Origin: a virus
Virus record (IMG/VR): IMGVR_UViG_3300013126_000016
Coordinates: 1-64,000 of that record
Direction: 5' to 3' (one strand)
Length of the DNA stretch: 64,000 nt
Part shown: positions 3,688-58,071 of the stretch, one piece after another
How positions within the stretch are numbered: the stretch's first letter is position 1
How the letters are laid out: each line of letters opens with the position of its first letter
Translations under genes and position numbers: made by a program
The notes under the pieces: generated by a model
Told to the model about the DNA's origin: nothing
Database searches by the model: none
Seen by the model: the letters and a program-made list of their open reading frames with translations, nothing else

Positions 3688-3756
3688 ATTAATTCTCTTA
3701 CTTGTTAATTTCTTTATATACTATCAATTTACTTTTTAATAAGGTTACTTAGAAGA

Positions 3757-3770: not shown

Positions 3771-3806
3771 AACATTTAAAGTAGTACCTCTACTACTTTT
3801 TTTGTT

Positions 3807-4070
3807 ATGCCTAATACTAACCTTAAACCTGGTTTCGTCTACTTCATCGGCGATATCTACGCTAATAAAGTCAAAATAGGCTACTCTAAAAACCCTCATG
3901 GCCGCCTCAAACAAATCTCCACCACCTATCCCGGTAAACTTACTCTCCTTAAATGCATTCCAGGCTCTATTAAGGACGAACGCCTCTATCATAAACTCTT
4001 CTGCCACTCCCGCATCTGCCGTGAATGGTTTACCCTAACCGCTGATATCTCTCACTTCATTAACCGTTAA
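3807..4070 (+). CDS. Mug113/T5orf172-type GIY-YIG domain protein
   Basis: This 87-residue protein is almost entirely one domain. GFVYFIGD near residue 10, KVKIGYSKNPHGRLKQIS near 21-38, a central LLKCIPG and an ERLYHKLF...REWFTLT ending match the Mug113/T5orf172 branch of the GIY-YIG nuclease superfamily, with K-I-G-Y as the second core motif and the Arg of GRLKQ as the usual conserved Arg. Members are common in phages and mobile elements; most are uncharacterised and DNA cleavage is assumed from the fold. The stop codon overlaps the next start (TAATG), so the two genes are probably co-translated. The first part of the gene is unusually C-rich on the coding strand. Confidence 0.8.
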   Translation: MPNTNLKPGFVYFIGDIYANKVKIGYSKNPHGRLKQISTTYPGKLTLLKCIPGSIKDERLYHKLFCHSRICREWFTLTADISHFINR

Positions 4071-36754: not shown

Positions 36755-36928
36755 ATGACTATAGAAGAGTTATTAAGCATAGCTATAAGATATAAATTAG
36801 GGAGAGAGAAGCTAGGGGATAATTGGACTATAGGAAAAGCAGTAGAGTACGAAAGTACCCTACCAAGAAAACTAACAATTGAAGAGTTAACTAAATTAAC
36901 TAAAAGAGAGGAGCAATTACAGTTTTAG
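36755..36928 (+). CDS. Small hypothetical protein (57 aa)
   Basis: The product begins MTIEELLSIAIRYKLGREKL, continues GDNWTIGKAVEYESTLPRKL and ends in a short helix. It starts 3 bases after the previous stop, and its own stop overlaps the end of the convergent recombinase gene by 12 bases. Last gene of the plus-strand run. No family was recognised. Confidence 0.6.
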   Translation: MTIEELLSIAIRYKLGREKLGDNWTIGKAVEYESTLPRKLTIEELTKLTKREEQLQF

Positions 36929-38491: not shown

Positions 38492-41400
38492 TTATTGTTG
38501 TTTAAAGAAAGCGAGGTCTTTTAGGGATTCTTCTGTAGTGTATTTAGGATATAAAGGGTCTAAAACTAGTAAGCCAAATCCGTCTGCAGTAGTTGAGTCT
38601 GTTTTTATATCTATAGAAGATGAACTAATAGAAACATCAAGGGTATATTGAGAAGGAGGGGTATATTGAGGATATTGAGGGTCGCTCCTGTATTGAACTG
38701 TAGGTTTAAAACCAGAAGAGTCTACAGTAAGTTTTATATTAGCAGTAGGTCTTTGCTCTTCTAATTTCTTCTTAGCGCGTTTTATTTCTACTATTTGTGA
38801 ATCAAACTCTAATACTATTCTTTGTAGTTGTTGATAATTTAAGACTGCTTTAGAATTAAATATATTAGTTTGGTCTTGAGGTTTAACAACAGGATTATCC
38901 GAGGGTAATTTAGCTATAGTACTTTCAAGAGCATTTTGAATAGGGGTAGGGACATTAGAGAGGAAATCGTATCCAGTAGTATTTTCGATTTGGTCAACAG
39001 TGGTCACATACCTTTTCCAGTCGTGGTCTAATGTTTCGCTGTTAGGGATATTAACAGCAATCACAGGGGTGCTAGAGGTAATATCTGAAATGCCAGAGGG
39101 TCGATCTAAGACAACAATTATTTTCCAGGTATATTCAGGGATATTAACTAGATTATTAATTTTCCCCTTGCTTCCAGAAACACCAGCAATAACATACAAG
39201 GTTTTTCCTTCTTGTATTAGTTTTCTACTGTAATCTTCTAAACTTGCCCAGGTTTTTCTATTATTAGTTTCTGTTTGAGGGATGATATTAGTCATTAAAA
39301 AAGTAGAGGAATTATCGTCCCTACTTCCTGTTCTATCCGAAGATGGAACTAAATGTCCTCTGTCATATCCAGAACCCCTATAATCACTTGGTTTTACAGA
39401 TTCCCACTCTTCTGGGAGACTGAAATCTGGTTTAAAATCATTTTGTCTTTTAGTGCTTCCTAGCCATAATTGATTAGCTTCCCATGATACCCAATTAGCA
39501 GTTCCAGTACTTCTGTTATAGGATAAAGCGTATTGTTCCTTTATCATTAGATAATTATTGGGACTACTAGTATTAGATTTAGCTTGACTAGGGTTACCAA
39601 GTAATAAATGAGGTGTTAGATATATCTGTTTTGGTGTATTAGGTGTACTAGATGTATTAGGTGTATTAGGTATATTAGGTATATTAGATTTATATTCTTT
39701 TGTTTTACTAACGGAGTCTAGTGGAACTTTAGTGTTAAACGCGCCGCTAAATATATCTATTAACTTATTACCTAATCTGTAAAGTATAGTTTGTCCTTGA
39801 TTAGGTATAGAGTTAATAAAGAAGAGATATTCATCTTGTCTCCTTTTTACTAGACCTCCTAAAACTCTACCATGATTATCTTTATTGTAAGGTAACAACC
39901 ATTTAGCAGCACTTAGATAATCTCCTTGATTTAAAAACTTAAGTAAAGTAGAGTTTTTAAATCCACCCACACCAGCATTAAAAGCAAAAGAAGTAAGAAT
40001 AGTAAACTGAGTTCTAGTTAAAGGTACTTTAACATTGTCTCTAACAGCTGTAGCAGCTTTATCCATATCCATAATAAAGATACGTTCTCCTTCTTGTTGG
40101 GTTATCCTTTGTCCCCACTTAACATCAGGTCCTGTATGACCATAACCTATAGTAAGAACACCCGTACCGTCATCATAAGTTTGAGGACGAAATTTTTCTT
40201 TATCTTTTATGTAATTAATTATTTGTTGATCATGCTGTATATGAGTAGGTAAATATGGATTAAATAACCTATTATCTACTTTACTAGTAGAAAAAGAAGT
40301 ATTACTAATAGGAGTATTCTTAGTAGGTACTTTAATACCAGCAGGTAAGGGTCTTCTAGGTATATTAATTTTCTCAGATGCTATTAAATAGCGTTGTGGT
40401 TCTATTAAAGTATTTATAGAAGTAAAATTTCCCGCTCCTGCATAGTTAAACTGTTTAGGATTAAGTATTTTATCATTACTTTTTTGTGATGCTATTGAAT
40501 AGAGTTGTGGTTCTACTAAAGTGTTTACTTCTATAAACTCTCCTGCTCCTGCATAATTAAAGTGTTCAGGAGAAGTAGAAGATATTTGTTGTTTTTCTTG
40601 AGTATGTTGAGTAACTATTACTTGAGATGGTTTTATAGATTGTCTTCTAAACCTTTCTTTATAGAAACGAACTTTTTCTAGTAAGAGACGCATATCATGA
40701 GAACGAGGGTCTGACCTATTCTCATTACGGTCAACATCACGGTGTGTAGTTATTCTAGACTCAGGGATATTATATCTTATAGACAATTCCGCAATAGCCT
40801 GAGCCATACTATCGTATTGTTCAGGAGTATAGCCTGAGTGGCCTATAGAATAGGGGTTACTATTAGCTGGGGATTCATAGGAAAAGTGATAAGAAAAGTT
40901 ATTAACTGAAGGTTTCTGATTACGACTAACTCTAAAAGTTTCATTATTAAAATAAGAATTAGAAGCACCAAAAGCTCTTTTAGAGTAATCAACTAATTCT
41001 ATGACAGTTCCGTCTCTAGTGATTATTCTATGATAACTAACCTTAGATCTAGGATCTTTAAAATAATTAACAGCTGATCTAGCAGAACTGGCTGTCTCGT
41101 GTAAAACAATTAAAGGTTGATTAGTGGCAGGTTTGCCATAAGCATCAACAGTAAGACGTTCTCCATAGTTAGAGGGGTTAACTTGTTCTCTTATAGTTCT
41201 ATAAGTTCTATTAGTGGGTAGCTGCGCGGCGGCTGCCCTTGGAATTAAACTCTGTACTATTTGACTTCCTATAGACTGTTGTGCAGACTGTCTAGCTATT
41301 TCTAAAGTTGTACTTCTACGGTCATTACTAGAACCTGTTAAGTCTAAAGCTCTGTTAGTAGCTATTTGTATAGATGTATTATTAGCAACATTAGATGGTA

Positions 41401-44400
41401 TATTATAAGATATTATAGGAGCTGGCCCATATCTTATTTCTAACAACTCACTAATAGTTTTAAACTTATACTGTTTATTAGAAAAATATCTTATTATTCC
41501 TTCTAAAGAATTAACAGTATTTTGTCTTGAAAGATTTGTTTCCCCACTGTCAGGATCTTTTCTAAAACTATCATGAAGGAGTATTATTGAACCTTTTCCT
41601 AACCTTTGTCTACTAGTCTTTACTCCTAGAATTACGTTGTTAAGGATTTGATTACTAGAGGAAGCTCTAAAATCTTTAGGGTCTATATCTGCTCCTATTA
41701 TAGCATAGCCTAATCCTCTTACATATTCTACGATAGGAGTATTGTAATTAAAATAAGGGGCTCTAAAAGTAATATTAGTTTTATTAAAATTAATACCAGT
41801 AATACTTTTTAAAGTTTCAATATTATCAGTTATTTCTTTTTCTATTTCACCTGATGAGAGCTTTCCTAATTCATCTCCTGGAAGAGAAATCCCAGCAAAC
41901 TTTTTATGTTTTAAATGTCTTTGAGTATGTAAACCTAATTGGTGACCTTCTTCAACAATCCTTCTAACTAAATCTGGGTGTTGTTTAGCGTGTATACCCA
42001 TAAGATAAAAAGTAGCTTTTACTCCGCTTTCCTTAAGAATGTCTAAAATTCTTGGAGTAAATAAAGGGTCAGGTCCATCGTCAAAAGTGAGAGCTACTAC
42101 TTTTTCTTGGGTATTAATATAATCTATAGGTTCTCTAGGAGGGTTATTAACTAAACTAGTAGGTAAAGCTTTGTACTGCCTAATAGCTTGAGTTAAAGGT
42201 ACTCTAGTTAAAGGTGGTGTTGATGATCGTGGTGGTGGTGGTGTACTTCTATTTCCTACATATTGTGCATATCTAGTTCTAGCAAATCTCATGAACTCAG
42301 ATAATTTGCCGGTTGGTTTTGCTTGATTAGGGTATTGACTTTTTCCTTCATCTGTTTGTAGGGGAGTCCATATACCAGATATTTCAAAGAATATACTACT
42401 TTTTATGTTTCTATTTTCTGAAAAAGCACTTATAACTTCATTTAAGTATGCTCCATTTCCCCTTTCAAAAAGTAAGTATATAGCTAATAAATCTTGTACA
42501 CCTGGTTCATAAGAAGGTTTAGATCTAAATAATTTCCTTAGAGTAGAATTAGCCCTTCGCCACTCAAGGTGAGGTGGGTTATTGTACATTATTTGATATC
42601 GTCCTGAAGCAGTAAAGGCTCCAGGTAAAGGACGATTATCGTAAGGCATTTGAGACAGATCAGTTAGCTCTGCCCCGCCATATAATTTAGTATAACCGTA
42701 GTTTTTAGTTGCATTATTAGGTAAAAAATCTGTTCCTTCTGATCTGGCTATAGCATCAAAAAACGCTCTTATAGCTGGGTGGTCTAAATATTGTTGAAGT
42801 TGTGTACCTAAAGGCGTTAAGTATGAAGTATCTCTAGGATTTAAAGGGTTATTACCTCTACCGGTTAGTATAGAACTAGGAAGGGTATTACTAGAGTAAA
42901 CATCATTTGCTATTGTTTGTGATCTGCGAAGAACATTAGGATTACCGCTGTTTAAAGCTTTAATATACCTTTCATGGTCTTCAACGGAAGCGGACAAGTG
43001 GACGTGAACATCTCCTGTAACAGCTGCGGCATTACTTTGAGTGCCTAAAAACTGACCTTCAACTACAGACTGACCGCTAGTAAAAGTAAGGCCTTTCAAA
43101 TGATACATTTGACCTAATATTCCTCTTTTGGAAGAGTCTCTTATAAAGGAGTCAGAAGAAAAAGAGTTTAAATAATCTTCTCTAGTTTTATAAAAAGTGT
43201 AGCCACCTAGTGCTGGTAAAACTTTTACAAAAGCAGTAAATGGAGAAGGAACTGGGACATCAGTAGATTGTTGACCTTTTAGTCTTAATACGTAATCTAT
43301 TTTTATTAGATTAGGGTTAAAAGGTTCTATTTCATCTCTTCCTCTACCAGGAATCCCTAAATCTCTATACCTCCTCCCACTTCCTGTTGTATTTCCTCTA
43401 TTTGTTGTACTTGGATGATGTATTGAAGTATCATTAAAAGTTTTAACTTTGTAAGGGCCTGACATTACGTCATAAGGAGCATAAGATACTCCTAATCCTA
43501 AAGGGGAGCCTGTAGGAGTTGGGGTTGAGGAATTAGCAGGAGGTCTAAAAGTTGCAGCATTAGTACGACTACCACCAGGTGAATAAGTATAAGGACCTAA
43601 TATAGCGCCAATAGCACCTCCTCCAATAGCACCACCGATAATAGCAAAAGGAGCAGCAGGGGGAAACAAAGCAGCTAATATACCACCAGCTACTAAACCT
43701 ACCCCGGCACCTACAGCAGTTGATAGAGCAATATGTCTTTGAAAATCTAATAAATCTCTACTAGAAGAGATCTTTAAAGCAGACATCCTTTGTGTGTAAT
43801 AAGTGTCTAATACATCGTTTAACACAGGAGAACCAAAGATTTCTAGAGCTATAGCAGCTCCGACACCAAGTGGGCCAAAGACAGAAAGGCCTAGACTTAC
43901 GCCGCTCATAATTATGTTTGTAGTTTCGCCGGCTAACTTTCTAGAAACGTATTCTCTACTTAACTGTTTTGGTTGACTTTCAGTGTCAAACATACTATAT
44001 AAAGATAATCCAGCTCTAAAACCAGAAATATAGCTCATATAAGAGAGACCTACACCTTTTACAGTGCTCTCAAAAGAAGGTATTTTAAAGAAATTACTTA
44101 CACTAGAAAGGTTTAAAGAACTAAGTTTAAAGTTTTTAATAAAATCAACCCCTTGAGGTAAATTAGAGACCAAAGGAATCCCTACAGAAGAATATAAAAG
44201 GGTAGATCCTACAGCTTGTTTTGTTTTATCATCATCTTTAGAAAACTGATTATAAGCTAAATAACCAAAGGTTAATCCTAAACCTAATAAATTTCCTGTA
44301 TTTGCTAACTTATTATTAAAACTAGAGCTAGTCGTAGATACTGCTTTATTAATAGTAGCTGTAGTAGTAGCTGTAGTAGTAGCTGTAGTCTTACCTAAAG

Positions 44401-47400
44401 GATTATTTGCATAATACTGACTACTGTATCTAGTATAAGCAGGGTCAATAGGATTAGAAGAGGGTATGTAAGGCAGTGGTACTTGTCTAGGTAAACTAGG
44501 AGGAGGAAAGATAGGTTTAGGAACTTGAGGTATGAAATTAGTTGAAGTAGAAACAGGTGTTGGAGAGAGTAAAGTAGCCGAAATAGAAACAGGGGCTATG
44601 TTCTGGGGTATAAATTTTGTAATTATATAAGGATTTTTTAATCGTAGAATTTGTTGTTGAAAAGTTTTAGCCTGTATTTCAGAGATATCATAACTAACTA
44701 CAGCACGTACTGTTGAAGGGTTACCAGGAACTGCTTCATAGTTTTCTAAACCTATTTCTACACTTCTTCTATAAGTGTAAACTCCTCCTTCTTCTGGTAT
44801 AAAGTCTGCATTATAAGGTACAAATTCCTTTTTGCCCTGAGCTTTTACTTCTATTAAATCAGTCTTTGAAGCGGGAATAGAATCTAACTGTTGTCTAAAA
44901 GAAGGGTGACTAGAGGGGGAATCAGTGACCTGCATTTCAGGATGACGTTTACCAAAAAGTCCTCGTTTTTGGGATTCTACAGGGATTGCAGGTCCCTCTA
45001 TTAAATGAAAAGTTAATTTATTATCAATAACTTTAGGAGTTTGTTGTAATATTCCTGTTCTTCTCATTAACTGCCCGTCAGCAGAATAATCGGGATAAAC
45101 TATATCATAAGTACTTCTAAATAATTTAACATTTTTATTGTAAGTGTATGAGGTAGAAGAAGTACCTATTACTTTCTTGTTGGGGTTAGAAGGACTAGGA
45201 GCAAAATTATCTATAAACTTAATATCTACTCCTTTTAGTTTATTTAATTCAGAACTAGTAGACAGTATATGAGAAGGCAAATGAGTATGCCTCTTAATAG
45301 CAAAATCATAAGGAGATACAGCAAAACGAGGATTTAAACTAGCAGTAGTAGAACCTCCAGGAGTAGTAGAAATAGTAGCAGTAGTAGAACCTCCAGGAGT
45401 AGTAGAAATAGTAGAAGTAGTAGAACCTCCAGGAGTAGTAGGAATAGAAGGTTGAATTGTGTTAATGGAAGCCTTTTCCAGTGCAAGAGTTTGCAATCGA
45501 TTTTGTTTAATATGTTTTAGAGATGCAAAGGACTCAAAAACACTGTAAAGAGCGACGCCGCCCGCTAATGTTAATACTCCTGTTTTGACAGTATCTCTAT
45601 CTATAGTAATAGGAATAGATTTAATAGCAGCGCCGAGAGTAGTGGCGCTAGGAAGTCTAAATTTTTCAACAAAATTATGGTAATGAAAGTCTGCTACTTT
45701 ATCAGAGAAATAATTTATAAATTTAGAAACACTAAGAGAAGCTAAGAAAATAATATGGTAGTTAACAGATCTACCACTTAGCCTAGCATTTCTTAAAGCC
45801 AAGGAACCTAATCCAGCATTTATAGTAGGGCCTATTAAGTTTTCGTAAGCTGCCCTAGTTTCTTCTTTAGTAGATTTAAGGTTAAGATTTAAAACGTTTA
45901 AAGCTCCTGAACCTATAAAACCTACATCAAAGATAGAAGGTGAGTGATATTGAATATTACCAAAGAAGGAGCGTAAACCTGAACGAATAGGGTTAGTAAC
46001 AAAACGAGCAGCGCCCACACTTCTATTATAGATATTAGAAGATAATCTAGTTATAAAAGGTGGGATAGAAGGTAGTCTTATTCCTCTAGAAACTCTAGTT
46101 GCAATGTTAGAAGAACCCCCAAGAAAAGAAAATACGCTACCAGTAGCTCTAGTTAATGCGTTAAGAACAGGATTAAAACCTCTCAAGTCAGAGCTTAAAT
46201 AATCTAAAAAGGGTCTTCTAGTCAAGCCATATCTAAAAGCACCATAAGAGGAGAGGATAGTAAAACCGGTGTTTATTGAATTAGAGATATTTTGAAGATT
46301 AGGGTCATTAGGATTTTTAGAGAGAAATAAATTATTAAAAATAATTCTAGAAGTAAGAGCTACAGAACTTAGGCCTAAAGTAAAAGAATTTCTAGCTCCA
46401 AAAGGAAGGAGAAAACGAACACCAGCGCCGACACTTGCTTTAGAAGCACCTTGAAATACTTTAAAAACGCTAACTGCAGTAGCTAAAGTTAGACTGCGTA
46501 TACTAGTTGGAACTCTAAGAGATTTAAAAAAAGACTGGTGTGCTGTTTTTCCAGAGAATGCTAAATGAGCGGAATAAAGTAAACCGATACCGCTTAGAGT
46601 AGAAGCTATAGCTAAATTGTTGCGTTGTTTATCTTCTTTTGATGAGTATCTATCTAGTAGATTATAAGCACTTATTAGAGATAATAATAATCCAGTTATA
46701 GCGATGTTTTTAGAGTTGTTTCTTATAAAAGGTATGTTAAATAATTGTTGTGCTTGTGTTCTAATTCTAGTATTAAAAGGTGAAAAGAGACGAGAAAAAA
46801 CATTTCTAGTAGAATTAGCCACACCGTGAGTAATGTTAGAGTAGAGGGCACCAATAGCTCTAATAGGGCGATATAGACGACGTATATTAGGTCTAATAAC
46901 ATCTCTGTAAACAAGGTCTTTGTAACCGAGGTAAGTAGAGTTATAGGCAAAACCAAGTTTAGGGACAACAGAAAAAATAGTGCTGAGAAGAGTAGCACCT
47001 CTAAAGAACTCAGGTAATCTACGTTGATAAGAACCGACAGCTTCATGATCTGAAATCTGAATACGGCGTTGGATAGCTAATCTAAGAAGAGAACTACCCA
47101 TTGCACGAGGTCTAAAATCGTTTAGTACTCTAGAAGAATTAATTGATTCAAAATACCTATCAGCATAAATTCTATCATATTCAGCAAACCTACCAAGAAC
47201 AGAAGAGTGTACAAAATCATCTATACCTCCTCTAGTTGAGCTGGCTCTTTGTCTAGCTGTCCTCATTAAGTCTAATCTATTCTGATAGACATCTATCGAT
47301 GTATATTTAAATAGGTTTCTACCAGCAAAAGCATATTCACGAGTAAACTTAGGATAGATGATGCGGTCGAAGCGTTTTGCGGTACTAGGGAGAAGAAGGT

Positions 47401-50400
47401 TAGAGAGAAAAGTAAGTGGGACATTGCCACTGATTTGGTTATCGACTTTATCCCAGACATAATCAAGGCTAGAGTCTATATGTTTAAAGACAGAGTTGCG
47501 TGCAGCGGAGAGGACATTAGAGACACCAGGTACTCCTGAAAGGTGATATATAATGGAAGAGGTTTTGTTAAATATAGGAGTACCAATATGGCGGTCATAA
47601 GATCTAGTTAAGTTTACAATAGAGCGAGTAAAAGAGCCGCGAAGAAATTGTTGATCCAAGTAATAAGCACCGATAGCGGAGCCAACTAAAAGAGAAGCGG
47701 CTCCAAAAGCTGGAACACTAGACATTGCGGCGCTAAATGCTCCAAGGGCAAAAACAGTTGCAGGAATTTCCCCTAAGAATCCAGCAGTAGCTTGAGAAGC
47801 TTCTATTTTACGAAGCATGTCATTTTCAGACCCAGCTAAAGTAAAACTAGATACAGCACTATATAGAGGAAAGAAGTCGTTAGCAGCTCCTATTATTTTC
47901 ATAAGGCCAAACATACCTTCAGAGAGCACTCCGCTAAACCCTCTATTTAACATAATTCTATTGATTATTTGTTCTGACTCAGGAGCTGTAGAGCTTATTC
48001 TATGCTGTATATTACCTCTAGGAGGAGTAACATTAGGGATGTTTAAGTATTCAGAATCAGTTACTAATTGTGCTGTAGCAGAGTGAAATAAAGATGTGTG
48101 TATTTGTTTAAATTTATTAGCTAATACAATTTTTAATTTATTAAGACGTATTTCATCTGAAAGACTATTATCAGCAAGGATATAATTAATTTCATAAGAT
48201 AAGGAATCAAACTGGTCAAGGAAATTCTTTAATTTATCTGGTTGAGATAAACCCATTACATCTCCGAACTTTATAGACCTTTGAGATTGGGAAGCAGGGT
48301 TTACAACATCAATTACAGTTCTGTCTAATAAATCGGATTTAAACCTATCTTTTATACTATTTATATAAGTATCTACGGTTTCAGTTCCTCTTAAAACCTG
48401 TCTTAAATCAGAGTTAAACAAACTTAAATCAGAATTAGAGCTAGAGTAGTTTATCAAGCGTCCATAAAAATTATTAAACTCAGAGCTAACATTGCTGGAT
48501 AATTTTCCTAAGTTACTACGTCCATCAGGGGTATCAGAAAACAATAGTTTATTTTCATCTAAATTAAAGAAAGCTTCAGAAGTTAATAGATATACAGGTT
48601 TATTAGTGCCTTTAAATTGTATTGGGTGTAAGCTAATAACTGGACTTTTTGCATCGTTTATAAATGCGTAGGATAAAGGAGGTCTTCTTATTCTTTCCAG
48701 GTCATTAAGAATGCTTTCTAGTTTACGAACAGTAGAGTTATGGAGAGCGCCTTGATTATAAGCTGCAAAAGAAGCAATAGATTGAATAGAGAAAGTAATA
48801 ATATTACCGGTAGTAATAAGAAACAGAGGTATTTGTTGAGCTGCTAACAGAGCAGCTGTTCCTGAGGTAGTAGTATTATTAAACCCACCTAGAGCGTACT
48901 TAAAGGTATTACCAAAGTAAGAAAATAAAGAAGAACTATCATTTTTTGGTCTAGCAGAGTTTATAAAATTGTAATCTAGATCTTTAGAACCGTACTTAAT
49001 ATTATCTAAGAATTTAAATAATTTATTACCAACGTCAAATAATAAGTTACGTTTTTTGGGTAAAGAAAAGTAACCGGAATAATTAAAGTAGTCAAAAGGT
49101 GAGAAAGTGCGAGGGAGTTCTCCAAATGGTAGAATCTTACTTAGTTCTTTATTAACTAAGTCTGTTTTAAACTTTCCAGACTTAAACAAGTCAAAGAAGA
49201 GAGAATAAACTAATTCTATAGGACGTTGGTGACTTAATCTTCTAGTTTCCTGAGTACGGAACTGTAAAGCATAAAGAAGAGCTTCACTAGTATTAGAAAG
49301 CATTTCTGATTCTGTACTAGTAATAAAACCTACTAATTTAGCGGGAGACTTACGAGGTAGAGAACCCATAATTCTGTTGTAGTTACGCTCTAATAGTTGG
49401 TCTGGAGATATATTTCTGTCATCATAGCTTAGTATATTTTTAAATATTTGTGAGAAATCAGAACTACTTAATAATTGAGCAAAGCTGTATTGAGAGCCAC
49501 TAATATCCGCGAAAGTTCCTTGAGATTGAGTATATAGTCTAAAATCGTATCTACCTTCAGAGAGGCCAAAAGGTCCGCCTAGGGGTATAAAGGCGTTAGC
49601 ATTATCTTGGTAGATAAGGCTTTTAATACCGAATATAGAGGTAGCGGCGCGGAGTAGATAATCAGAGTAAGCGTAGAGAGAATCTGTAAAGTTTTTAGGT
49701 TGATAACGAGGTTTTTTATAAGACCCTGGAAGTCTGTACAGCTGCTCTTCAAAAGTTAAATTAGCTGAATCAGAATCCGAAACAACATCTGTAAAACCTA
49801 AACCTTTACCTGTTAATCCTCTGCCGAATAAACCTATAGCCGCTAACACGGCTGATACAGAGAATACTCTTCTTGCAGCTATAGATAAACGTAGAGGTAC
49901 TGTTCTTACAAACAAATTATCAATAGATTGACTAGCATCTATTGCTTGAGTATATATTCTATGTATTGCTTGCTGTTGGCGACCTATATAAGTGTTAGGT
50001 GTAGCGTTAGCAAAGGACTCAGCAGTATCAAATACACCTGCGTTTCTTAATGAATATCCATAAATAGCAGTAAGAGGAATAGTAGTGGTAGTTAGCTTCC
50101 AGGCTTCCGAGGCGAGGGCATTGGGTTCTAGGAAAGAACCTATATGGGAGAAATCAGAATCAGGAGAGTGAACAGAGGAAGCGTACAGATAAGCAAGAGC
50201 CAAAGGTAAAGCTCTTCTAAAGCGGGAGCCATAGCGAGTACCAAGAGCTCTAAGAGATTGTTCAGGAATGCCTAAAGTAGCAGCTGCGCCTCTAGCAATA
50301 GCATTAGGCAGAGCAAAAAGGGGAGTTTGACTGTATCTAGCAAGAGTTTCAAAAGAACCGGCTACAAATTTAGCTATATGATAAGGAGTTTTAAATTGTC

Positions 50401-53400
50401 TTAGCTCTCTTCTTAAAGTAGAAGTTGATGGAAGTCTTCGTAATCTATCTTCTAGTCTATCAAAACCAGTAGAAATATAAGAAGATATTCCAACAAAACT
50501 CATAACAGTAGAAAGAGAATTATCTTTAGAGAAAGAGAGAAAATGTTTAGGAAAAGATAAGAAAGAGAGTGAAAAAGCTAACTTTTCACTTTCGGATATA
50601 TCTTCTTCAGTTAGAGGAGTTTTACTACTAATATAATTTATACTGCTCCTACGAGCTTCAGGTAAATAAGAATTAAAAGGTTTAAGTCTAAATTCTAAAG
50701 GTGCAGAAGGGATAGAGCCAGTACCTAATATAGGGAAAAACTGAAAACCTGCTCCTATAGTTAATGAATTACCAGCTGGGTCTAGTTTAGATACAAAAGT
50801 TAGCTGAAAGATAGGGTTAGGTATTTGTTGAGAGAAGTTGTAATTAACTTGTTCTCTAGCGACTCTACCATAGGTTAGATTATAAGCTGCTAACATGGAG
50901 AGATTTAACATAGAATATTCTTTAATAGTAAAAGGTTTATCTTGTTGTAATCGAGATACAACACCCTTAATTAAAGATAGAGATGAGAGGTAATTTTCAG
51001 AGTTAGGGGAAGAGCCTGTAGGAGAATTACCTGAGATAAACTTATTAAGATTTAAGATATTAGCTGCGGCGTTAAATATAAACTGAGTAGCTAATAAAGT
51101 AAGGGAACCTCCTATTAGAGCTCCCAACCATCCAAATTTAGTAACAGGTCTAGAACTAGAAACATTCTTTAATCTTGTTAGAAGTTGCTGTTGTTCTGTA
51201 GTTAAATTAGTAAAAGGATTATCTAATAGGGAAGAAGTTGGGTCATTAATACCAGTAGCTTGCCTAACAATATTAAGATGTTGTAGTATTCCATGTGGAT
51301 AGAAGCGTTGTGTTCTTTCACTAAAAGACTTTTCAAAGATACTAATACCAGTACTAGTAGTATATTCAAAACTAGGGAGTAGGTGTCCACCTATAATAAA
51401 ACCAGACGCAACTAAAGGATATTTTATATAACCAGGTATGCCACCAGAATATTTTATGTTAGCAAACTTACGATCATTGCCCTCTTTAGTTTTATAGCTT
51501 GTAAGATTAAAATCAACTAATATCTGGTTAATAAGATCTCCTGAGTTACGCATTATATGAGGGTCAAACAACTTATCAGCTATAAGAAGAGGACCAACAG
51601 AAAGAAGAAAACCACGAACAGACTTAAAGATATTAGGTTTACCAGCATCTATAGAAGTAGCATAATTATAACGACTTTGAACGATAGTATCGTACTGTTC
51701 TCTGCGTTGTATATATAATTCTAATAATCGTCTAGAGCGGGGTTCTCTTAATAAGTTTTGGAGGGATCTGCTTAAAACACCTACATTATTAGGGTCACTA
51801 CCACCACCATATAATTGTTCTGTTAGCTGTCTTAATAATTCTGTATAATCAGGAGCACCAGCAGGATTTATTGGTGTAGTTAGATTTAAGCGTCTAAAGT
51901 TTGCATTTTTTAGTATTCTTTCTACTCTTGTGTATATTTGTTTTTCTATAGAAAATAAAGAATTCTCTAGAGTGTAAATTCTAAAGTTTTCAAAAGCTTC
52001 TTGATAGATATTAGAGTTAGTTGATTGTTTAAAGATAGTTTGAGCAATCCTTTTACTAAAAGCAGTAAGACCGCTAAAACCTGGAGCCAAGAGATTTTTA
52101 AGGGAATAATCTTCAATATCAGTACCTGCGCTGCGGTCAACTCTGAGGGAGCGGATGCCAATAGAATCACGATAAGGTTTAAAATAAAGTAAAGGATTAG
52201 CAGGGATAAACTCAGATATTTTATCTAATAATTCAGCGATGGATTCTAATCTTGAATAACCGTAGTTTTTTATTTCAAAATCGCTAAATCTTCTATGGAA
52301 ACTACCATCAGGAGTCTGTACTATTTTATAGACAGCTACAGGGTTTTGAGACAATAAATTTCTGAGGTTTTCTAAGTTATTATTAAAGATCCTTCTAGAT
52401 TCGTCATCAGGCACAACAGAAATAGATTCTAAGATAGGAAATACAATATGATTAAAATTAGAAAGGTCTAACTGTCTAAATCTAGAAAGTTGTCCAAACC
52501 AACCTCTATCAAAACCTAGAGTAGAAGAATTATAAGACCTAGAAAGGTCAAGTTCTGCAGTAGTAGTGTTAATACCTAAAACTTCGCGTTGAACTCGAGT
52601 TAACTCATCAGAACTAAGAGTAGTAGGAGTTGTTGAAACTGAAGGTGTAATATTTTCTGAGACATGAACAATTAATCTATTAATAGCAGAACCCTCTGGG
52701 GTTACATTATTGCTACCGTATATTACGTCTAACTGTAAACGGACATCGTTATTTATACCACTATAATCAGGAGTATAACCTTGTATTTCAGCAGCTCGTT
52801 GAGTTACGTAATTATAATAATCTTCTACAAACTTACCAGCATTAAGAGAACTTATATTTGGGTCAGTACTAATAAATGAGTTTTGTAGGTTTGTAATAAT
52901 ATCTATAGATTTAATAAATTCATTAGAAAAGAAAAAGTCTCGTATATTTCTATCACTTAAGTTAGTAATATCAGAATCAGTAAATAAAGTGCTACTAACC
53001 TTTTCAATACCAACTTCTTCAAACTGAGCTTTAGCGATAGAAAAAGTATGAGATACACCAAAGTAAAAAGCTAAAGAATAAGCTGTAGAAGAAACCGTCA
53101 TAGCAGAGGAGTAGATAGTGTTTTCAAACACTCCTCTTTCTGGATCTGCTTCGTAAAAAGATTTATGAAATTTTGATATAGAACCTTTTTCTTTTCCGGA
53201 GCGTACTCTTCTATAAAATTCGCTAGAATAGAATCCAGTAAAAGTATCTAATACACGTCCTACGCCTTTAGCCAGTACACCAGTCAGACCAGAACCTTCA
53301 GTATAGATATCAGTAAATATTCTATTTAGAATATCTCCAAAACCGGGTAAATTAAGACTGTAATCAGCCCATTTAGCTATAGTACCTTTAAAACCTGTAG

Positions 53401-54283
53401 GTTTTTCTCCTGATGCTGTAAAGTATGTGTCTTGATACATAGACACAGAAGTTTGCTTAGTGTTATTAAAGAAATCACTACCAAGGTAATTAGGTAAGAT
53501 AAGTTGTTGAAGGTCAGAGGTTTCGGATCTATTTTTATAGAGTAGGGGAATAAAGAATTTAAGAATAGGATTATCAATAGCTTCTACTTTAGCTAATTTA
53601 AACTCTGCTGAAGATTTTCTAAAACTAGAAGGTTGAAGATAATATTTATCTGACCAGATACCTTTTTTCTCTTCTTTAGCTTTGCTTTGTACACCTGATA
53701 ATCTTTCTAGACCAGGATTTTCTCTAGCGTATTTATAAAAGAACTCAGAGTATATTGAAGCGTAACCATGTTCTAGTAGGTTTTCCTGTAAAGTATAATC
53801 TTTATTAGTAGTAGTAGGTTTTAATCCTATTATAGAAACAGTTCTACCATATTCATCCCTATCTAAAGTTATTATATTTACCTTGTTGCCCTCTTTTTTT
53901 AATAAGTCTTCAACATGTTTAGTTGCTTTTTTACCCCATTTAAAGTGTTCTATATCTATTTTATTTTTAGAATTTTCTTCTTCAGGAGTATGGGGGATTT
54001 CAGGTGCATCAACTAAACCGACTCTAATAGTTACTGTTTTTTTAGACTGATCAGATTCATAATAACCACTAATAGTATCAGCGTCACTAACTTTTTGGAC
54101 AATAAAACTTTTTTGAGAAACAGGTTGACGAGGTTGAGGATTAAAATAATTGCTAAGTTGGGATGCTGCTCCTTGAAAGTTAGAGCTGATATTAGACATT
54201 GCTCCTTGAATATTAGAAGCAGTTACTGCCAAAGACCCAGGAGATAAAACAGAATTAGATATTAGATATTTTGAATAATCCAT
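38492..54283 (-). CDS. Giant multi-enzyme virion protein (5263 aa)
   Basis: Domains from the N-terminus: staphylococcal-nuclease-like (about 60-212; DADT, R87, DAPE, DEYGR); about 2700 residues of hydrophobic and Arg/Ser-rich helices with no known domain; a TTPGGST repeat near 2950; a degenerate M23/LytM-like domain (about 3674-3774, ends HVHL); a lambda-R/GH104-like lysozyme (about 3827-4009; IARSEGT, GRYQI); a CE4/NodB deacetylase (about 4059-4285; TFDDGPD, HTQRH, LLHDS); an amidase_2 domain (about 4386-4541; VLHET, THRD); a duplicated FNYAGAG unit; a T4-type GH24 lysozyme (about 4687-4826; GYGHT); and a His-Me finger NUC1 nuclease (about 4911-5105; DRGH). Probably packaged and used at entry or in lysis. 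No frame break was seen. Confidence 0.9.
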   Translation of the reverse strand: MDYSKYLISNSVLSPGSLAVTASNIQGAMSNISSNFQGAASQLSNYFNPQPRQPVSQKSFIVQKVSDADTISGYYESDQSKKTVTIRVGLVDAPEIPHTPEEENSKNKIDIEHFKWGKKATKHVEDLLKKEGNKVNIITLDRDEYGRTVSIIGLKPTTTNKDYTLQENLLEHGYASIYSEFFYKYARENPGLERLSGVQSKAKEEKKGIWSDKYYLQPSSFRKSSAEFKLAKVEAIDNPILKFFIPLLYKNRSETSDLQQLILPNYLGSDFFNNTKQTSVSMYQDTYFTASGEKPTGFKGTIAKWADYSLNLPGFGDILNRIFTDIYTEGSGLTGVLAKGVGRVLDTFTGFYSSEFYRRVRSGKEKGSISKFHKSFYEADPERGVFENTIYSSAMTVSSTAYSLAFYFGVSHTFSIAKAQFEEVGIEKVSSTLFTDSDITNLSDRNIRDFFFSNEFIKSIDIITNLQNSFISTDPNISSLNAGKFVEDYYNYVTQRAAEIQGYTPDYSGINNDVRLQLDVIYGSNNVTPEGSAINRLIVHVSENITPSVSTTPTTLSSDELTRVQREVLGINTTTAELDLSRSYNSSTLGFDRGWFGQLSRFRQLDLSNFNHIVFPILESISVVPDDESRRIFNNNLENLRNLLSQNPVAVYKIVQTPDGSFHRRFSDFEIKNYGYSRLESIAELLDKISEFIPANPLLYFKPYRDSIGIRSLRVDRSAGTDIEDYSLKNLLAPGFSGLTAFSKRIAQTIFKQSTNSNIYQEAFENFRIYTLENSLFSIEKQIYTRVERILKNANFRRLNLTTPINPAGAPDYTELLRQLTEQLYGGGSDPNNVGVLSRSLQNLLREPRSRRLLELYIQRREQYDTIVQSRYNYATSIDAGKPNIFKSVRGFLLSVGPLLIADKLFDPHIMRNSGDLINQILVDFNLTSYKTKEGNDRKFANIKYSGGIPGYIKYPLVASGFIIGGHLLPSFEYTTSTGISIFEKSFSERTQRFYPHGILQHLNIVRQATGINDPTSSLLDNPFTNLTTEQQQLLTRLKNVSSSRPVTKFGWLGALIGGSLTLLATQFIFNAAANILNLNKFISGNSPTGSSPNSENYLSSLSLIKGVVSRLQQDKPFTIKEYSMLNLSMLAAYNLTYGRVAREQVNYNFSQQIPNPIFQLTFVSKLDPAGNSLTIGAGFQFFPILGTGSIPSAPLEFRLKPFNSYLPEARRSSINYISSKTPLTEEDISESEKLAFSLSFLSFPKHFLSFSKDNSLSTVMSFVGISSYISTGFDRLEDRLRRLPSTSTLRRELRQFKTPYHIAKFVAGSFETLARYSQTPLFALPNAIARGAAATLGIPEQSLRALGTRYGSRFRRALPLALAYLYASSVHSPDSDFSHIGSFLEPNALASEAWKLTTTTIPLTAIYGYSLRNAGVFDTAESFANATPNTYIGRQQQAIHRIYTQAIDASQSIDNLFVRTVPLRLSIAARRVFSVSAVLAAIGLFGRGLTGKGLGFTDVVSDSDSANLTFEEQLYRLPGSYKKPRYQPKNFTDSLYAYSDYLLRAATSIFGIKSLIYQDNANAFIPLGGPFGLSEGRYDFRLYTQSQGTFADISGSQYSFAQLLSSSDFSQIFKNILSYDDRNISPDQLLERNYNRIMGSLPRKSPAKLVGFITSTESEMLSNTSEALLYALQFRTQETRRLSHQRPIELVYSLFFDLFKSGKFKTDLVNKELSKILPFGELPRTFSPFDYFNYSGYFSLPKKRNLLFDVGNKLFKFLDNIKYGSKDLDYNFINSARPKNDSSSLFSYFGNTFKYALGGFNNTTTSGTAALLAAQQIPLFLITTGNIITFSIQSIASFAAYNQGALHNSTVRKLESILNDLERIRRPPLSYAFINDAKSPVISLHPIQFKGTNKPVYLLTSEAFFNLDENKLLFSDTPDGRSNLGKLSSNVSSEFNNFYGRLINYSSSNSDLSLFNSDLRQVLRGTETVDTYINSIKDRFKSDLLDRTVIDVVNPASQSQRSIKFGDVMGLSQPDKLKNFLDQFDSLSYEINYILADNSLSDEIRLNKLKIVLANKFKQIHTSLFHSATAQLVTDSEYLNIPNVTPPRGNIQHRISSTAPESEQIINRIMLNRGFSGVLSEGMFGLMKIIGAANDFFPLYSAVSSFTLAGSENDMLRKIEASQATAGFLGEIPATVFALGAFSAAMSSVPAFGAASLLVGSAIGAYYLDQQFLRGSFTRSIVNLTRSYDRHIGTPIFNKTSSIIYHLSGVPGVSNVLSAARNSVFKHIDSSLDYVWDKVDNQISGNVPLTFLSNLLLPSTAKRFDRIIYPKFTREYAFAGRNLFKYTSIDVYQNRLDLMRTARQRASSTRGGIDDFVHSSVLGRFAEYDRIYADRYFESINSSRVLNDFRPRAMGSSLLRLAIQRRIQISDHEAVGSYQRRLPEFFRGATLLSTIFSVVPKLGFAYNSTYLGYKDLVYRDVIRPNIRRLYRPIRAIGALYSNITHGVANSTRNVFSRLFSPFNTRIRTQAQQLFNIPFIRNNSKNIAITGLLLSLISAYNLLDRYSSKEDKQRNNLAIASTLSGIGLLYSAHLAFSGKTAHQSFFKSLRVPTSIRSLTLATAVSVFKVFQGASKASVGAGVRFLLPFGARNSFTLGLSSVALTSRIIFNNLFLSKNPNDPNLQNISNSINTGFTILSSYGAFRYGLTRRPFLDYLSSDLRGFNPVLNALTRATGSVFSFLGGSSNIATRVSRGIRLPSIPPFITRLSSNIYNRSVGAARFVTNPIRSGLRSFFGNIQYHSPSIFDVGFIGSGALNVLNLNLKSTKEETRAAYENLIGPTINAGLGSLALRNARLSGRSVNYHIIFLASLSVSKFINYFSDKVADFHYHNFVEKFRLPSATTLGAAIKSIPITIDRDTVKTGVLTLAGGVALYSVFESFASLKHIKQNRLQTLALEKASINTIQPSIPTTPGGSTTSTISTTPGGSTTATISTTPGGSTTASLNPRFAVSPYDFAIKRHTHLPSHILSTSSELNKLKGVDIKFIDNFAPSPSNPNKKVIGTSSTSYTYNKNVKLFRSTYDIVYPDYSADGQLMRRTGILQQTPKVIDNKLTFHLIEGPAIPVESQKRGLFGKRHPEMQVTDSPSSHPSFRQQLDSIPASKTDLIEVKAQGKKEFVPYNADFIPEEGGVYTYRRSVEIGLENYEAVPGNPSTVRAVVSYDISEIQAKTFQQQILRLKNPYIITKFIPQNIAPVSISATLLSPTPVSTSTNFIPQVPKPIFPPPSLPRQVPLPYIPSSNPIDPAYTRYSSQYYANNPLGKTTATTTATTTATINKAVSTTSSSFNNKLANTGNLLGLGLTFGYLAYNQFSKDDDKTKQAVGSTLLYSSVGIPLVSNLPQGVDFIKNFKLSSLNLSSVSNFFKIPSFESTVKGVGLSYMSYISGFRAGLSLYSMFDTESQPKQLSREYVSRKLAGETTNIIMSGVSLGLSVFGPLGVGAAIALEIFGSPVLNDVLDTYYTQRMSALKISSSRDLLDFQRHIALSTAVGAGVGLVAGGILAALFPPAAPFAIIGGAIGGGAIGAILGPYTYSPGGSRTNAATFRPPANSSTPTPTGSPLGLGVSYAPYDVMSGPYKVKTFNDTSIHHPSTTNRGNTTGSGRRYRDLGIPGRGRDEIEPFNPNLIKIDYVLRLKGQQSTDVPVPSPFTAFVKVLPALGGYTFYKTREDYLNSFSSDSFIRDSSKRGILGQMYHLKGLTFTSGQSVVEGQFLGTQSNAAAVTGDVHVHLSASVEDHERYIKALNSGNPNVLRRSQTIANDVYSSNTLPSSILTGRGNNPLNPRDTSYLTPLGTQLQQYLDHPAIRAFFDAIARSEGTDFLPNNATKNYGYTKLYGGAELTDLSQMPYDNRPLPGAFTASGRYQIMYNNPPHLEWRRANSTLRKLFRSKPSYEPGVQDLLAIYLLFERGNGAYLNEVISAFSENRNIKSSIFFEISGIWTPLQTDEGKSQYPNQAKPTGKLSEFMRFARTRYAQYVGNRSTPPPPRSSTPPLTRVPLTQAIRQYKALPTSLVNNPPREPIDYINTQEKVVALTFDDGPDPLFTPRILDILKESGVKATFYLMGIHAKQHPDLVRRIVEEGHQLGLHTQRHLKHKKFAGISLPGDELGKLSSGEIEKEITDNIETLKSITGINFNKTNITFRAPYFNYNTPIVEYVRGLGYAIIGADIDPKDFRASSSNQILNNVILGVKTSRQRLGKGSIILLHDSFRKDPDSGETNLSRQNTVNSLEGIIRYFSNKQYKFKTISELLEIRYGPAPIISYNIPSNVANNTSIQIATNRALDLTGSSNDRRSTTLEIARQSAQQSIGSQIVQSLIPRAAAAQLPTNRTYRTIREQVNPSNYGERLTVDAYGKPATNQPLIVLHETASSARSAVNYFKDPRSKVSYHRIITRDGTVIELVDYSKRAFGASNSYFNNETFRVSRNQKPSVNNFSYHFSYESPANSNPYSIGHSGYTPEQYDSMAQAIAELSIRYNIPESRITTHRDVDRNENRSDPRSHDMRLLLEKVRFYKERFRRQSIKPSQVIVTQHTQEKQQISSTSPEHFNYAGAGEFIEVNTLVEPQLYSIASQKSNDKILNPKQFNYAGAGNFTSINTLIEPQRYLIASEKINIPRRPLPAGIKVPTKNTPISNTSFSTSKVDNRLFNPYLPTHIQHDQQIINYIKDKEKFRPQTYDDGTGVLTIGYGHTGPDVKWGQRITQQEGERIFIMDMDKAATAVRDNVKVPLTRTQFTILTSFAFNAGVGGFKNSTLLKFLNQGDYLSAAKWLLPYNKDNHGRVLGGLVKRRQDEYLFFINSIPNQGQTILYRLGNKLIDIFSGAFNTKVPLDSVSKTKEYKSNIPNIPNTPNTSSTPNTPKQIYLTPHLLLGNPSQAKSNTSSPNNYLMIKEQYALSYNRSTGTANWVSWEANQLWLGSTKRQNDFKPDFSLPEEWESVKPSDYRGSGYDRGHLVPSSDRTGSRDDNSSTFLMTNIIPQTETNNRKTWASLEDYSRKLIQEGKTLYVIAGVSGSKGKINNLVNIPEYTWKIIVVLDRPSGISDITSSTPVIAVNIPNSETLDHDWKRYVTTVDQIENTTGYDFLSNVPTPIQNALESTIAKLPSDNPVVKPQDQTNIFNSKAVLNYQQLQRIVLEFDSQIVEIKRAKKKLEEQRPTANIKLTVDSSGFKPTVQYRSDPQYPQYTPPSQYTLDVSISSSSIDIKTDSTTADGFGLLVLDPLYPKYTTEESLKDLAFFKQQ
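45340..45440 (-). repeat. 36-bp tandem repeat in the giant gene
   Basis: Three copies of a 36-base unit encode STTPGGSTT(S/A)TI, a flexible Thr/Gly linker near residue 2950. Confidence 0.75.
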
Positions 54284-54303: not shown

Positions 54304-55302
54304 TTAGTATCTACTAGAAGTATTAATGTTATATTCTATTAATTGGTCTAAAGTAAGAGAAGGTTGATATTGAACAGACATAGTAGACTGACCTAATATA
54401 AGAGAGTTAGAAAAGATATTAAGCATGTTCTGTTCAAAGATAAAACTATCTACACCACTAACAGAATTAACTGCCCAAACAAAATAAGGTAGAGCTATTT
54501 GAGAAGAGCTATAAAGAAGAGTAAGGGACTGAAACAAGGGTTTACTTCTAACTATCCAATTTTGCATATCAAAAGGTTTAGAATTACCACGGCGGTAGTA
54601 CCTTACCTTATAGCGTCCACGAGGGATAAAAAGGTCAGAAGGAATAAGTTCAAACTTAACTAAACCGTCAACTGGTATCTCAACAATAAAAGGTTCTCTA
54701 ATATGACTAAAAACTCCTGGTCTACAAGAAGCAGGGGGAGTAATATGTAAATAATAATCTGACTTAGGAATTACAGCACTAGAAGGAGCAGAATCATCAT
54801 TAAGGATACTACAAATAACAGGAGAGATAGTAGCTATAGCGTAGCCTAAGCCTGGTTGAATAGTAATGATTACTGTTTCATTTTCTTCTTGATCAGTATC
54901 TCCTATAGGGGATATAAAAAGGATTGAAGTTGGGGTATTTTCTGTAAATACTATAGTACCAGAAGTGCTATTAAAGGTAGCCGCGCCGGACTGAGTATAA
55001 TCAGCTGGATCAGTTCCATTGGCTTCAAATCTAGCAGTCCCGCCAACTGAGAAATTAACAGTTAAAGGTAGAGTAAGGTCACCGTTGCGAGTAAAGGTAA
55101 AAGCAAACTTAGTGTTTGTGTTTTCATTTAGTCTAGTAGGGGATACAGAAAGGGAAACGCTAGGAGAGTCGTTAGGGGTTATTCGATATGGAGGAACAAA
55201 CTGAATAGCTATAGGAGAATAAACTAAAGGAAGAGATGGACTATAGAAAAGATTATTATTAGTTATAAAAGGTACATTATTGCCATCTACGAATAAAGTC
55301 AT
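54304..55302 (-). CDS. Calx-beta domain structural protein
   Basis: The protein has 332 residues. Residues 45-170 form a Calx-beta domain: SVSLSVSPTRLNENTNTKFA, then FTFTRNG, GTDPADYTQSG, GTIVFTENTPTSILF and GDTDQEENETVIITI are the characteristic strands and acidic Ca-binding loops. These domains bind calcium and occur in adhesins, including many cyanobacterial surface proteins. The C-terminal half is beta-rich without recognised motifs. It lies 20 bases upstream of the giant gene in the same transcript, so it is probably a surface-binding virion protein. A GC-rich core at about 54978 encodes SGAAT. Confidence 0.8.
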   Translation of the reverse strand: MTLFVDGNNVPFITNNNLFYSPSLPLVYSPIAIQFVPPYRITPNDSPSVSLSVSPTRLNENTNTKFAFTFTRNGDLTLPLTVNFSVGGTARFEANGTDPADYTQSGAATFNSTSGTIVFTENTPTSILFISPIGDTDQEENETVIITIQPGLGYAIATISPVICSILNDDSAPSSAVIPKSDYYLHITPPASCRPGVFSHIREPFIVEIPVDGLVKFELIPSDLFIPRGRYKVRYYRRGNSKPFDMQNWIVRSKPLFQSLTLLYSSSQIALPYFVWAVNSVSGVDSFIFEQNMLNIFSNSLILGQSTMSVQYQPSLTLDQLIEYNINTSSRY

Positions 55303-56280: not shown

Positions 56281-58071
56281 CTAATCATCTTGAGACCACA
56301 CAGGGTCTGAGAAGGAGTTATATTTCCAGCGACGGTAAGAGCGGCGGACTTGTTTAGTTAGTTCTTTAGAAGAGTTAGTAAAAGTGAGGTCAGAGTCAGA
56401 GAAATTAGTATTTACAGACCCAATAGAAGAGGATTTAGGAGTTTCGGAAGTAGAGAAATCAGACATAAGATGCCATATAACAGAGACTACAGCATCAGCA
56501 ATATCTTTAGAACCATCCTTACGATGGTCTATCTTTTTTTGATTTATAAGGCTAATACCAAATAATTCTTCTTTAAGGCGACTAGTCCAAGGAGAATCTA
56601 CAGGTAGTATTACTCTATTTTCGTGAAGCATCTTACGAAAGAAATCGTAAAGTTCTAATTGTTTTGTTTGACTAAAAGTCATAACAGAAGCGTTAAGACC
56701 AGAGTTTCTAAGATGTTGAATAGTTTCAGGATTATAATGGTCAGAAGTAATTTTGCTTAAAGGTCTAGATTTGTTTACTTCATATATACAACTGTAAACA
56801 TTGCTAATACCGACAGTTTGTTCTGGGCTATTATCCCAGACTAAAAGACCGTCTATAATACCATAGCGTTCTTTGTTTATAACTTCCCTATGACCAAAAG
56901 CAACAGCAAAACTATCAGTTACAAAAGCTGGATCTAAATGCATAGCAGAGACTAGAGAAGTAGATAGTATCTTTTTAATATTAATTCTTACAAGTTTATC
57001 AGAACCTACTTCTGTACTTAAAGAAATAGAAGAGTTACCTCTAAAAGAGCGGACTATTTCGTCATCATCAAAGAAAGAGTAGAGTCGGTTATAACGTACG
57101 CCTTCAAATTCTAGAGCTGCTTGGCGGGGATCTAAATGGTATTCTGCTTGTACTACAGGATTATCTCTAGCAGCATGAACAGGATTAAGATCCCAGGAGC
57201 GAAGTCTGAAACCCAACCAACCTGGAGAAGATTTAGAGACTTGGTATAACTTTTGTATAGCGTCACCTTCGCACCAAGCAGAAGATATAGCAATACGTTT
57301 AGCATCACAACCAAAAGTAACACCAGAGATACCAATGTTTGACCATAATTTAAGAGCGTTACTTTCAGAATCGCCGCTAGATATTTTAGATTCTTCATCA
57401 AACCTAGCAACTTCATCCATCAATAAACATATTACTGAAGACCCTACTTGAGACGCAGAATTAGAATTACCGCTATATATGTACAAGAGTTTATCAGGAT
57501 ACTTAATCTCTTCCTCTCCTATAATAATCTTTTTTTTATCTACTAAACGTTTAATATACGGAATATGTTCTAAAAGTCCTTTTATTTGAGAAAATATAGT
57601 TCTCTTAGTTTGTGTAGCACTAGTAGCTATACAGTATATAGATATAGCAGTAGATGTAGCTATATTATAATACATTTGAGGACTTTTCATAGCGCATAAC
57701 CTGTAGAATTCGTAAGCACCAATTAAAGAAGCCAAGAAGCTTTTAGAACCCCGCCGGCCAGCTTCAACACAGAGAGATTGATAAGTAGTACCTGGGATAT
57801 AAAAGGAGGGGTTAAAAGAAAGTCTATCAAGAGCAAACCAAGATTCTAATATAGCCTGTTCATCTTCATTAAGAGACAGGCCATAAAAAGTTTTTAATAA
57901 AAGAACTTGACGGGGGTTTAGTTCTTTCACACCCCAGGTTTCTTTATTTATTTCATTAGCTATAAAACTTAGAATATCAGAAGATTGAGGAACTCCAATT
58001 TCTTCATTAATAGAGTCTACAATACTTTCTATAAAACTACTAACTTCTAAAGTAAAATCCCTGGCTGCCAT
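56281..58071 (-). CDS. terL: Terminase large subunit
   Basis: The protein has 596 residues. ATPase: Walker A-like EAGRRGSKSFLAS (about 108-120), Walker B VICLLMDEVARF (about 213-224). Nuclease: MHLDPAFVTDSFAVAFGHRE with a first Asp and a late HRKDGSKDIADAVVSVIWHL with the final acidic residue. It cuts the concatemer and pumps DNA into the head. Its placement downstream of the baseplate genes rather than at the start of the packaging block is noteworthy. The small subunit is not evident nearby. Confidence 0.9.
   Translation of the reverse strand: MAARDFTLEVSSFIESIVDSINEEIGVPQSSDILSFIANEINKETWGVKELNPRQVLLLKTFYGLSLNEDEQAILESWFALDRLSFNPSFYIPGTTYQSLCVEAGRRGSKSFLASLIGAYEFYRLCAMKSPQMYYNIATSTAISIYCIATSATQTKRTIFSQIKGLLEHIPYIKRLVDKKKIIIGEEEIKYPDKLLYIYSGNSNSASQVGSSVICLLMDEVARFDEESKISSGDSESNALKLWSNIGISGVTFGCDAKRIAISSAWCEGDAIQKLYQVSKSSPGWLGFRLRSWDLNPVHAARDNPVVQAEYHLDPRQAALEFEGVRYNRLYSFFDDDEIVRSFRGNSSISLSTEVGSDKLVRINIKKILSTSLVSAMHLDPAFVTDSFAVAFGHREVINKERYGIIDGLLVWDNSPEQTVGISNVYSCIYEVNKSRPLSKITSDHYNPETIQHLRNSGLNASVMTFSQTKQLELYDFFRKMLHENRVILPVDSPWTSRLKEELFGISLINQKKIDHRKDGSKDIADAVVSVIWHLMSDFSTSETPKSSSIGSVNTNFSDSDLTFTNSSKELTKQVRRSYRRWKYNSFSDPVWSQDD

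Follow-up and report, generated by a model that had tools for sequence, protein, structure and literature searches.

A giant reading frame with nuclease and wall-enzyme domains after the terminase gene of a Ma-LMM01-like phage, and its candidate role in entry

Gene order and integrity of the giant frame

The window analysed here is a stretch of 64,000 nucleotides that forms part of an 87-kb IMG/VR virus fragment (record IMGVR_UViG_3300013126_000016). As a preliminary description of this DNA had claimed, a single frame of 5263 residues, followed by a stop codon, runs without interruption on the minus strand, and the observation of a giant multi-domain frame is thereby confirmed. The gene forms the end of a same-strand run that encodes portal, Mu-like protease, capsid, tail sheath, tube, baseplate wedge and terminase. 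The terminase, which shows kinship also with its counterpart in Microcoleus phage My-WqHQDG, marks the late gene run. The window phage is a contractile-tailed relative of Microcystis phage Ma-LMM01 and so belongs near known freshwater viruses of cyanobacteria. The main features outside the enzyme domains are listed below; residue numbers here and throughout refer to the giant protein.

56281..58071, minus strand: large terminase subunit, 36% identical to the Ma-LMM01 terminase and indicative of a Ma-LMM01-like affiliation
54304..55302, minus strand: 332-aa ORF directly upstream of the giant
38492..54283, minus strand: giant ORF, 5263 aa; homologous giants follow the terminase in Ma-LMM01, the Microcoleus phage and most IMG/VR relatives examined
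46934..53584, minus strand: family core, residues ~234-2450, best conserved over 250-1750 (blastp to relatives, E 0 to 1e-126; hhalign; AF2)
45340..45447, minus strand: 36-bp tandem repeat in three copies, encoding a linker rich in Ser, Thr and Gly that joins the core to the C-terminal part
43595..43915, minus strand: Gly-rich hydrophobic segments, residues ~3457-3563, which account for three of the giant's four hydrophobic 19-residue segments
40364..40571, minus strand: tandem duplicated linker between Amidase_2 and GH24, period ~111 bp, ~1.9 copies

Between the terminase and the giant, an ORF of 271 aa (55428-56243) gave AAA/SMC-like ATPase matches. On the other side, 96 bp downstream of the giant, lies a large serine recombinase/integrase-like ORF (36917-38395, minus strand; phrog_95, 1e-46), past which a terminator-like stem was seen at 36865-36840. 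The window phage may be temperate, or a mobile element may occupy the recombinase site; either could have aided domain capture. Elsewhere in the record we noted an ORF of at least 1229 aa (1-3687, minus strand) that runs off the record start and has no Pfam or PHROG match, a spore photoproduct lyase-like gene (PF20903; window 4070-5113), and a long tail-sheath ORF of 1188 aa (L003:11486-15052; record 71486-75052) in which the sheath C-terminal domain was recognised at the end only. No further lysin was recognised among the other ORFs of the fragment, and profile searches of the record recognised no other protein as a tape measure. A search of the fragment for a NuiA-type inhibitor found none, the search control being likewise silent.

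Base composition is level along the giant frame (GC 0.31-0.36, GC3 0.14-0.23) and resembles that of the adjoining genes. A second contig, at 98%, backs the first 300 residues, and a single contig covers the last ~1,000. The whole giant has no close DNA or protein relative among named phages, nor do its C-terminal pieces have a near copy in IMG/VR. The NUC1 domain alone matched one IMG/VR contig, where the frame is a 146-codon ORF and not a giant.

By blastp the core matched many relatives with E-values between 0 and 1e-50 and others less strongly, and hhalign aligned it with the Ma-LMM01/Microcoleus proteins (98%, E 4.5e-14; 94%, E 1.6e-7). AF2 models of two core pieces, of 751 aa and 16 sequences each, were mostly helical and of moderate quality, with pLDDT values of 71 (residues 250-1000) and 64 (1000-1750). 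Neither model gave a significant fold match in the PDB, and the model of residues 250-1000 gave none among viral models. Four hydrophobic segments were predicted in the giant, three of which are Gly-rich and clustered directly before the M23 domain; glycine-zipper Pfam matches were found in the giants of some relatives. It is possible that this Gly-rich stretch is membrane-interacting.

Enzyme domains of the window giant

Domains were called with Pfam and PHROG profiles and by comparison with solved structures, giving the following set.

53639..54106, minus strand: SNase domain in the N-terminal nuclease slot, residues ~60-215 (PF00565, 3.4e-15)
42944..43366, minus strand: degenerate M23, residues ~3640-3780 (PF01551, 0.027; phmmer to L087, L083 and L075, 1e-8 to 1e-6)
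42254..42811, minus strand: GH104 lytic transglycosylase-like domain, residues ~3825-4010 (phrog_90, 2e-12; 1am7/3d3d, 4e-4)
41432..42115, minus strand: CE4 polysaccharide deacetylase, residues ~4057-4284 (PF01522, Polysacc_deac_1, 2.5e-31; 7y51, 3e-28)
40703..41113, minus strand: Amidase_2, residues ~4391-4527 (PF01510, 1.8e-19)
39830..40204, minus strand: GH24 phage lysozyme, residues ~4694-4818 (PF00959, Phage_lysozyme, 5.8e-36; 9kbs, 5e-26)
38945..39592, minus strand: NUC1/NucA-type endonuclease, residues ~4898-5113 (PF01223, Endonuclease_NS, 4.7e-55; NucA structures 1zm8/2o3b, 2e-88 and 3e-88)

These are the domains that the preliminary description had named, each with its key motifs apart from a degenerate M23, and the profile searches that it called for recovered all of them (SNase, CE4, Amidase_2, GH24 and NUC1 strongly, GH104 clearly, M23 weakly), with key motifs in place everywhere except at the first M23 zinc His. 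The catalytic Arg/Asp/Glu/Arg set of the SNase domain is complete (R87, D92, E95, R147). The GH104 domain, whose matches 1am7 and 3d3d are solved lambda-type lysozymes, has its catalytic Glu at E3849 in a SEGTD-type motif, as placed by alignment with relatives and by the 1am7 match. The CE4 domain carries TFDDGP-4066, H4119xxxH4123, R4174xPY and LLH4237; the Amidase_2 domain has, by motif, the zinc ligands of two His and an Asp/Cys (H4395, H4514 and D4525) and also Y4417; and the GH24 domain has E4696, D4705 and T4711 in the pattern E-x8-D-x5-T. In the NUC1 domain we found DRGH-4974, the metal-binding N5007/N5008 and the downstream E5016, so that the earlier claim of two nucleases, SNase and NUC1, agrees with the sequence. 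An HExxH zincin motif is absent from the window giant, and Pfam and PHROG profiles recognised no tail-fibre or sheath-binding domain in it.

The M23 stretch required closer inspection. Of the zinc site HxxxD plus HxH, the Asp (D3663) and the H3760xH3762 pair are present, as is H3728, but the first His is absent, and it is missing in 7/7 aligned members. Clear M23 domains occur near the C-terminus of relatives' giants (1e-15, 1e-12 and 5e-10), and two relatives with such domains match the window stretch directly by phmmer (1e-8 and 9e-7); the weak profile match therefore reflects homology and not chance. The window M23 peptidase is probably impaired. A similar arrangement is seen in PDB 8kea, which we take to be a cyanophage baseplate, where an M23-like stretch stands at the end of a phage-type hub; that match covers 58 residues only, and the hub, at 899 aa, is not a giant.

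The preliminary description also proposed that different bonds of peptidoglycan could be attacked. Since the glycan is the target of both GH24 and GH104, and CE4 does no more than deacetylate, cleavage is predicted for two kinds of bond, glycan and amide, and not for four; to these the probably impaired M23 peptidase is to be added.

The C-terminal domain aligns with Anabaena NucA (PDB 1zm8, 2o3b) along its length at 2e-88 with DRGH intact, although, unlike NucA, it is the last domain of a fused phage giant. Its nearest genome matches are cyanobacteria, with identity up to 60%, which points to a cyanobacterial source for the domain. This source, together with the kinship with Ma-LMM01, suggests a cyanobacterial host; a terminase search of genome assemblies for the host gave no match.

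Giants of related phages and their exchangeable ends

A giant gene lies just after the terminase in Ma-LMM01 (gp120), MaMV-DC (AGR48684), MaMV-DH01 (UWV19772) and Microcoleus phage My-WqHQDG (WOL31340), and is annotated as hypothetical in each. These giants are like that of the window in position, and those of Ma-LMM01 and Microcoleus have homologous cores, but all four are shorter, and no wall enzymes were recognised in the Ma-LMM01 and Microcoleus proteins. In that of Ma-LMM01 no enzyme domain of any kind was recognised, so that enzyme activity is not a trait of every family member. Searching IMG/VR with the terminase gave 46 loci; most of those with enough flanking sequence have a giant after the terminase, and the completed giants range from 2,898 to 9,530 aa. 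The longest are single frames of ~9,530 aa in L085/L095 (G014) and of 7,866 aa in L078/L093 (G007), both with HExxH. The G004 giant sits elsewhere, toward the far end of its contig, and may adjoin the terminase if that genome is circular. No giant was found within 5.7 kb after the terminase of L016, or after the related terminase of the one Streptomyces phage examined. The terminase ORFs of L016 (8261-11467, 1068 aa) and L014 (10001-12220, 739 aa) have insertions at different sites, which look like inteins or similar elements, and in L014 there are IS200/IS605-like ORFs downstream of the terminase.

Relatives' giants were scanned with Pfam on their end pieces. At the N-terminal slot, PLDc_2 was found in 10/19 relatives and SNase in 3/19, and at least three changes between SNase and PLD are forced on the terminase tree. 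In two sister pairs the partners differ: the window has SNase and L010 has PLD, and L045 has SNase and the Microcoleus giant a PLD domain in the place of the window's SNase. The record of the window's closest relative contains no SNase and has instead a PLD match with an HxK motif. SNase and PLD are unrelated phosphodiesterase folds that share one slot, and it is this occupancy by two such folds that argues for a selected nuclease function. The PLD domains could also act on lipids.

The C-terminal parts vary as well. M23 occurs in the giant frames of 9/22 relative records, and matches to GH104, DPBB transglycosylase, VanY, deacetylase, Beta-lactamase2-like and other domains were found in these parts of relatives' giants; in L080 there is a VanY peptidase (2e-33) with weak kinase/APH-like matches. 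GH104 was common to L075, L077 and L081 at first pass and to ten giants after iteration, where the E-values of the iterated GH104 and CE4 profiles come from local models that include the members themselves. The order M23-GH104 recurs in relatives, the order GH104-CE4 recurs in L082, and CE4 is found in one other family member. Amidase_2 and GH24 each occur in 2/22 relative records as separate frames (154 and 167 codons, and 221 and 281 codons, respectively), and NUC1 in 0/22. Among the giants compared, only that of the window contains Amidase_2, GH24 and NUC1, and because they are absent from relatives' giants, these domains seem to have been added later, in the lineage of the window phage. 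As these comparisons read, both ends have enzyme slots whose contents can be exchanged without loss of the core, and the gene looks like a rapidly evolving toolkit for entering cells.

The preliminary description had called this combination of domains striking. The window giant is indeed the richest in recognised enzyme domains among the 24 giant sequences compared; the gene itself, however, is clade-wide and carries other enzyme sets elsewhere, and a polyvalent class of proteins has been described. Its members bring nucleases and peptidases together with peptidoglycan enzymes, and their injection along with the DNA is predicted (Iyer et al. 2017; PMC5512222); the same paper reported a paucity of them in cyanobacteria. 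The window giant resembles polyvalent proteins in uniting disparate activities, in two or more domains, within one polypeptide, and in its late/virion context, with terminase, baseplate, sheath, tube, portal and capsid genes on the same strand; some relatives add zincin HExxH motifs, VanY peptidase and weak kinase matches. It differs in lacking a zincin metallopeptidase, which is a common processing theme there though not found in all, in a core matched to no known domain, in belonging to giants of up to ~9,500 aa, and in single end-slots exchanged between unrelated folds. The HExxH motif occurs in the giants of L081, L083, L087, L078 and L085, against a chance expectation of 0.01-0.14 per protein. 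Because zincin motifs, common in the described class, occur in these five relatives and not in the window giant, we call the latter polyvalent-like and not a member.

Candidate role in entry and alternatives

We lean, with some reserve, toward the interpretation that the giant travels in the virion as a cargo resembling polyvalent proteins, and that at entry it opens the wall and brings in nucleases. We infer its location in the virion, its ejection, its activity and its targets from what can be read in the sequence: the ORF, the domains with their motifs, the shared core, the slot replacements and the late-gene context. The same-strand run of structural genes and its conserved place after the terminase make it plausible as a virion protein. 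The giant would be carried in the particle and released during infection; the mostly helical core would hold it there or contribute to a passage across the envelope. The C-terminal GH104, GH24 and amidase domains would open the wall locally and CE4 would alter the glycan, with M23 probably impaired, and the N-terminal SNase together with the captured cyanobacterial-type NucA at the C-terminal end would cut nucleic acid of the host or of competitors. A transglycosylase is known in T7 gp16. Giant multi-domain virion proteins of the N4 vRNAP and T7 gp16 type are expelled into the host (PMC12633501), and the proposed ejection of the window giant would be of this kind, although it has no recognised RNA polymerase, belongs to a contractile-tailed phage and shows no sequence or fold match to these proteins. 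Transcription of the Ma-LMM01 terminase and lysozyme falls in the middle class and not the late one, the class of gp120 being absent from the main text (PMC5780444); this counts against the entry reading. Our search of the literature on Ma-LMM01-like phages found no virion proteome or other proteomic evidence for any family member. Taken as a whole, the earlier interpretation is partly supported.

It is unlikely, in our judgement, that the giant is instead the tape measure of the tail, ending in lytic domains of the kind known from mycobacteriophage TM4, among others. Although it is the largest protein of its gene run and its core is predicted to be mostly helical, the gene lies beyond the terminase, outside the tail module, and its size varies from 2,898 to 9,530 aa within one clade. 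Tail length follows a tape measure at 1.5 A per residue, and for one relative, MaMV-DH01, ~2,899 aa would predict a tail of ~435 nm, as against the 230-260 nm reported. Tape-measure proteins can carry peptidoglycan-hydrolase motifs (PMC1796659), and the profile searches recognised none other in the record; yet no tape-measure profile matched the pieces scanned, and while several of the core's fold matches are tape measures, none is significant. A role at exit, in which endolysin genes became fused to a structural gene and are used mainly at the end of infection, seems improbable to us. GH24 and Amidase_2 are short, endolysin-sized separate frames in some relatives and lie within a giant here only, but a soluble protein of 5,263 residues is unlikely as an endolysin, the M23 and GH104 domains of the C-terminal part are a family trait, and nuclease domains would be of no use for lysis. 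The lack of another recognised lysin among the other ORFs fits such a role, although in a record that is a fragment this means little.

Secretion is common among homologues of SNase and NucA, and the nucleases might accordingly have targets outside the cell, such as extracellular DNA within the sheath of the host, and not act in the infected cell. We consider this quite improbable, since the N-terminal slot is on the same polypeptide as the large core, far from the lytic end, and no tail-fibre or sheath-binding domain was recognised. To an assembly chimera, in which the last enzymes came from another genome and were joined in silico, we give hardly any credence. The block from CE4 to NUC1 was found in this contig only, and Amidase_2, GH24 and NUC1 were not found in relatives' giants; against this, the frame is open over every junction with even GC and GC3, the M23-GH104 and GH104-CE4 orders recur in relatives, the frame stops 96 bp short of a recombinase ORF on the same strand, and the second contig backs the first 300 residues.

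The entry reading can be extended to the family, a proposition that we regard as evenly balanced: the giants of Ma-LMM01-like cyanophages would form a family not described before, of proteins delivered by the virion and up to ~9,500 aa long, with a helical core and replaceable nuclease and wall-hydrolase cartridges at two ends, a set that in the window has grown to include a cyanobacterial-type NucA and would make a combined wall-breaching and nucleic-acid-attacking entry machine. Polyvalent proteins as such are known; the cyanophage family of giants, its size range and its swappable slots are new. The gene is annotated as hypothetical in cultured isolates, and a clade-wide giant family of polyvalent-like make-up is thus placed in relatives of phages that infect bloom-forming cyanobacteria, such proteins having been reported as scarce in cyanobacteria. 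Because unrelated nucleases replace each other in a single slot, the role of a virion nuclease becomes directly testable in a culturable phage-host pair, and the predicted action on two wall bonds, together with deacetylation and NucA, would be useful for the study of how the cyanobacterial wall is breached.
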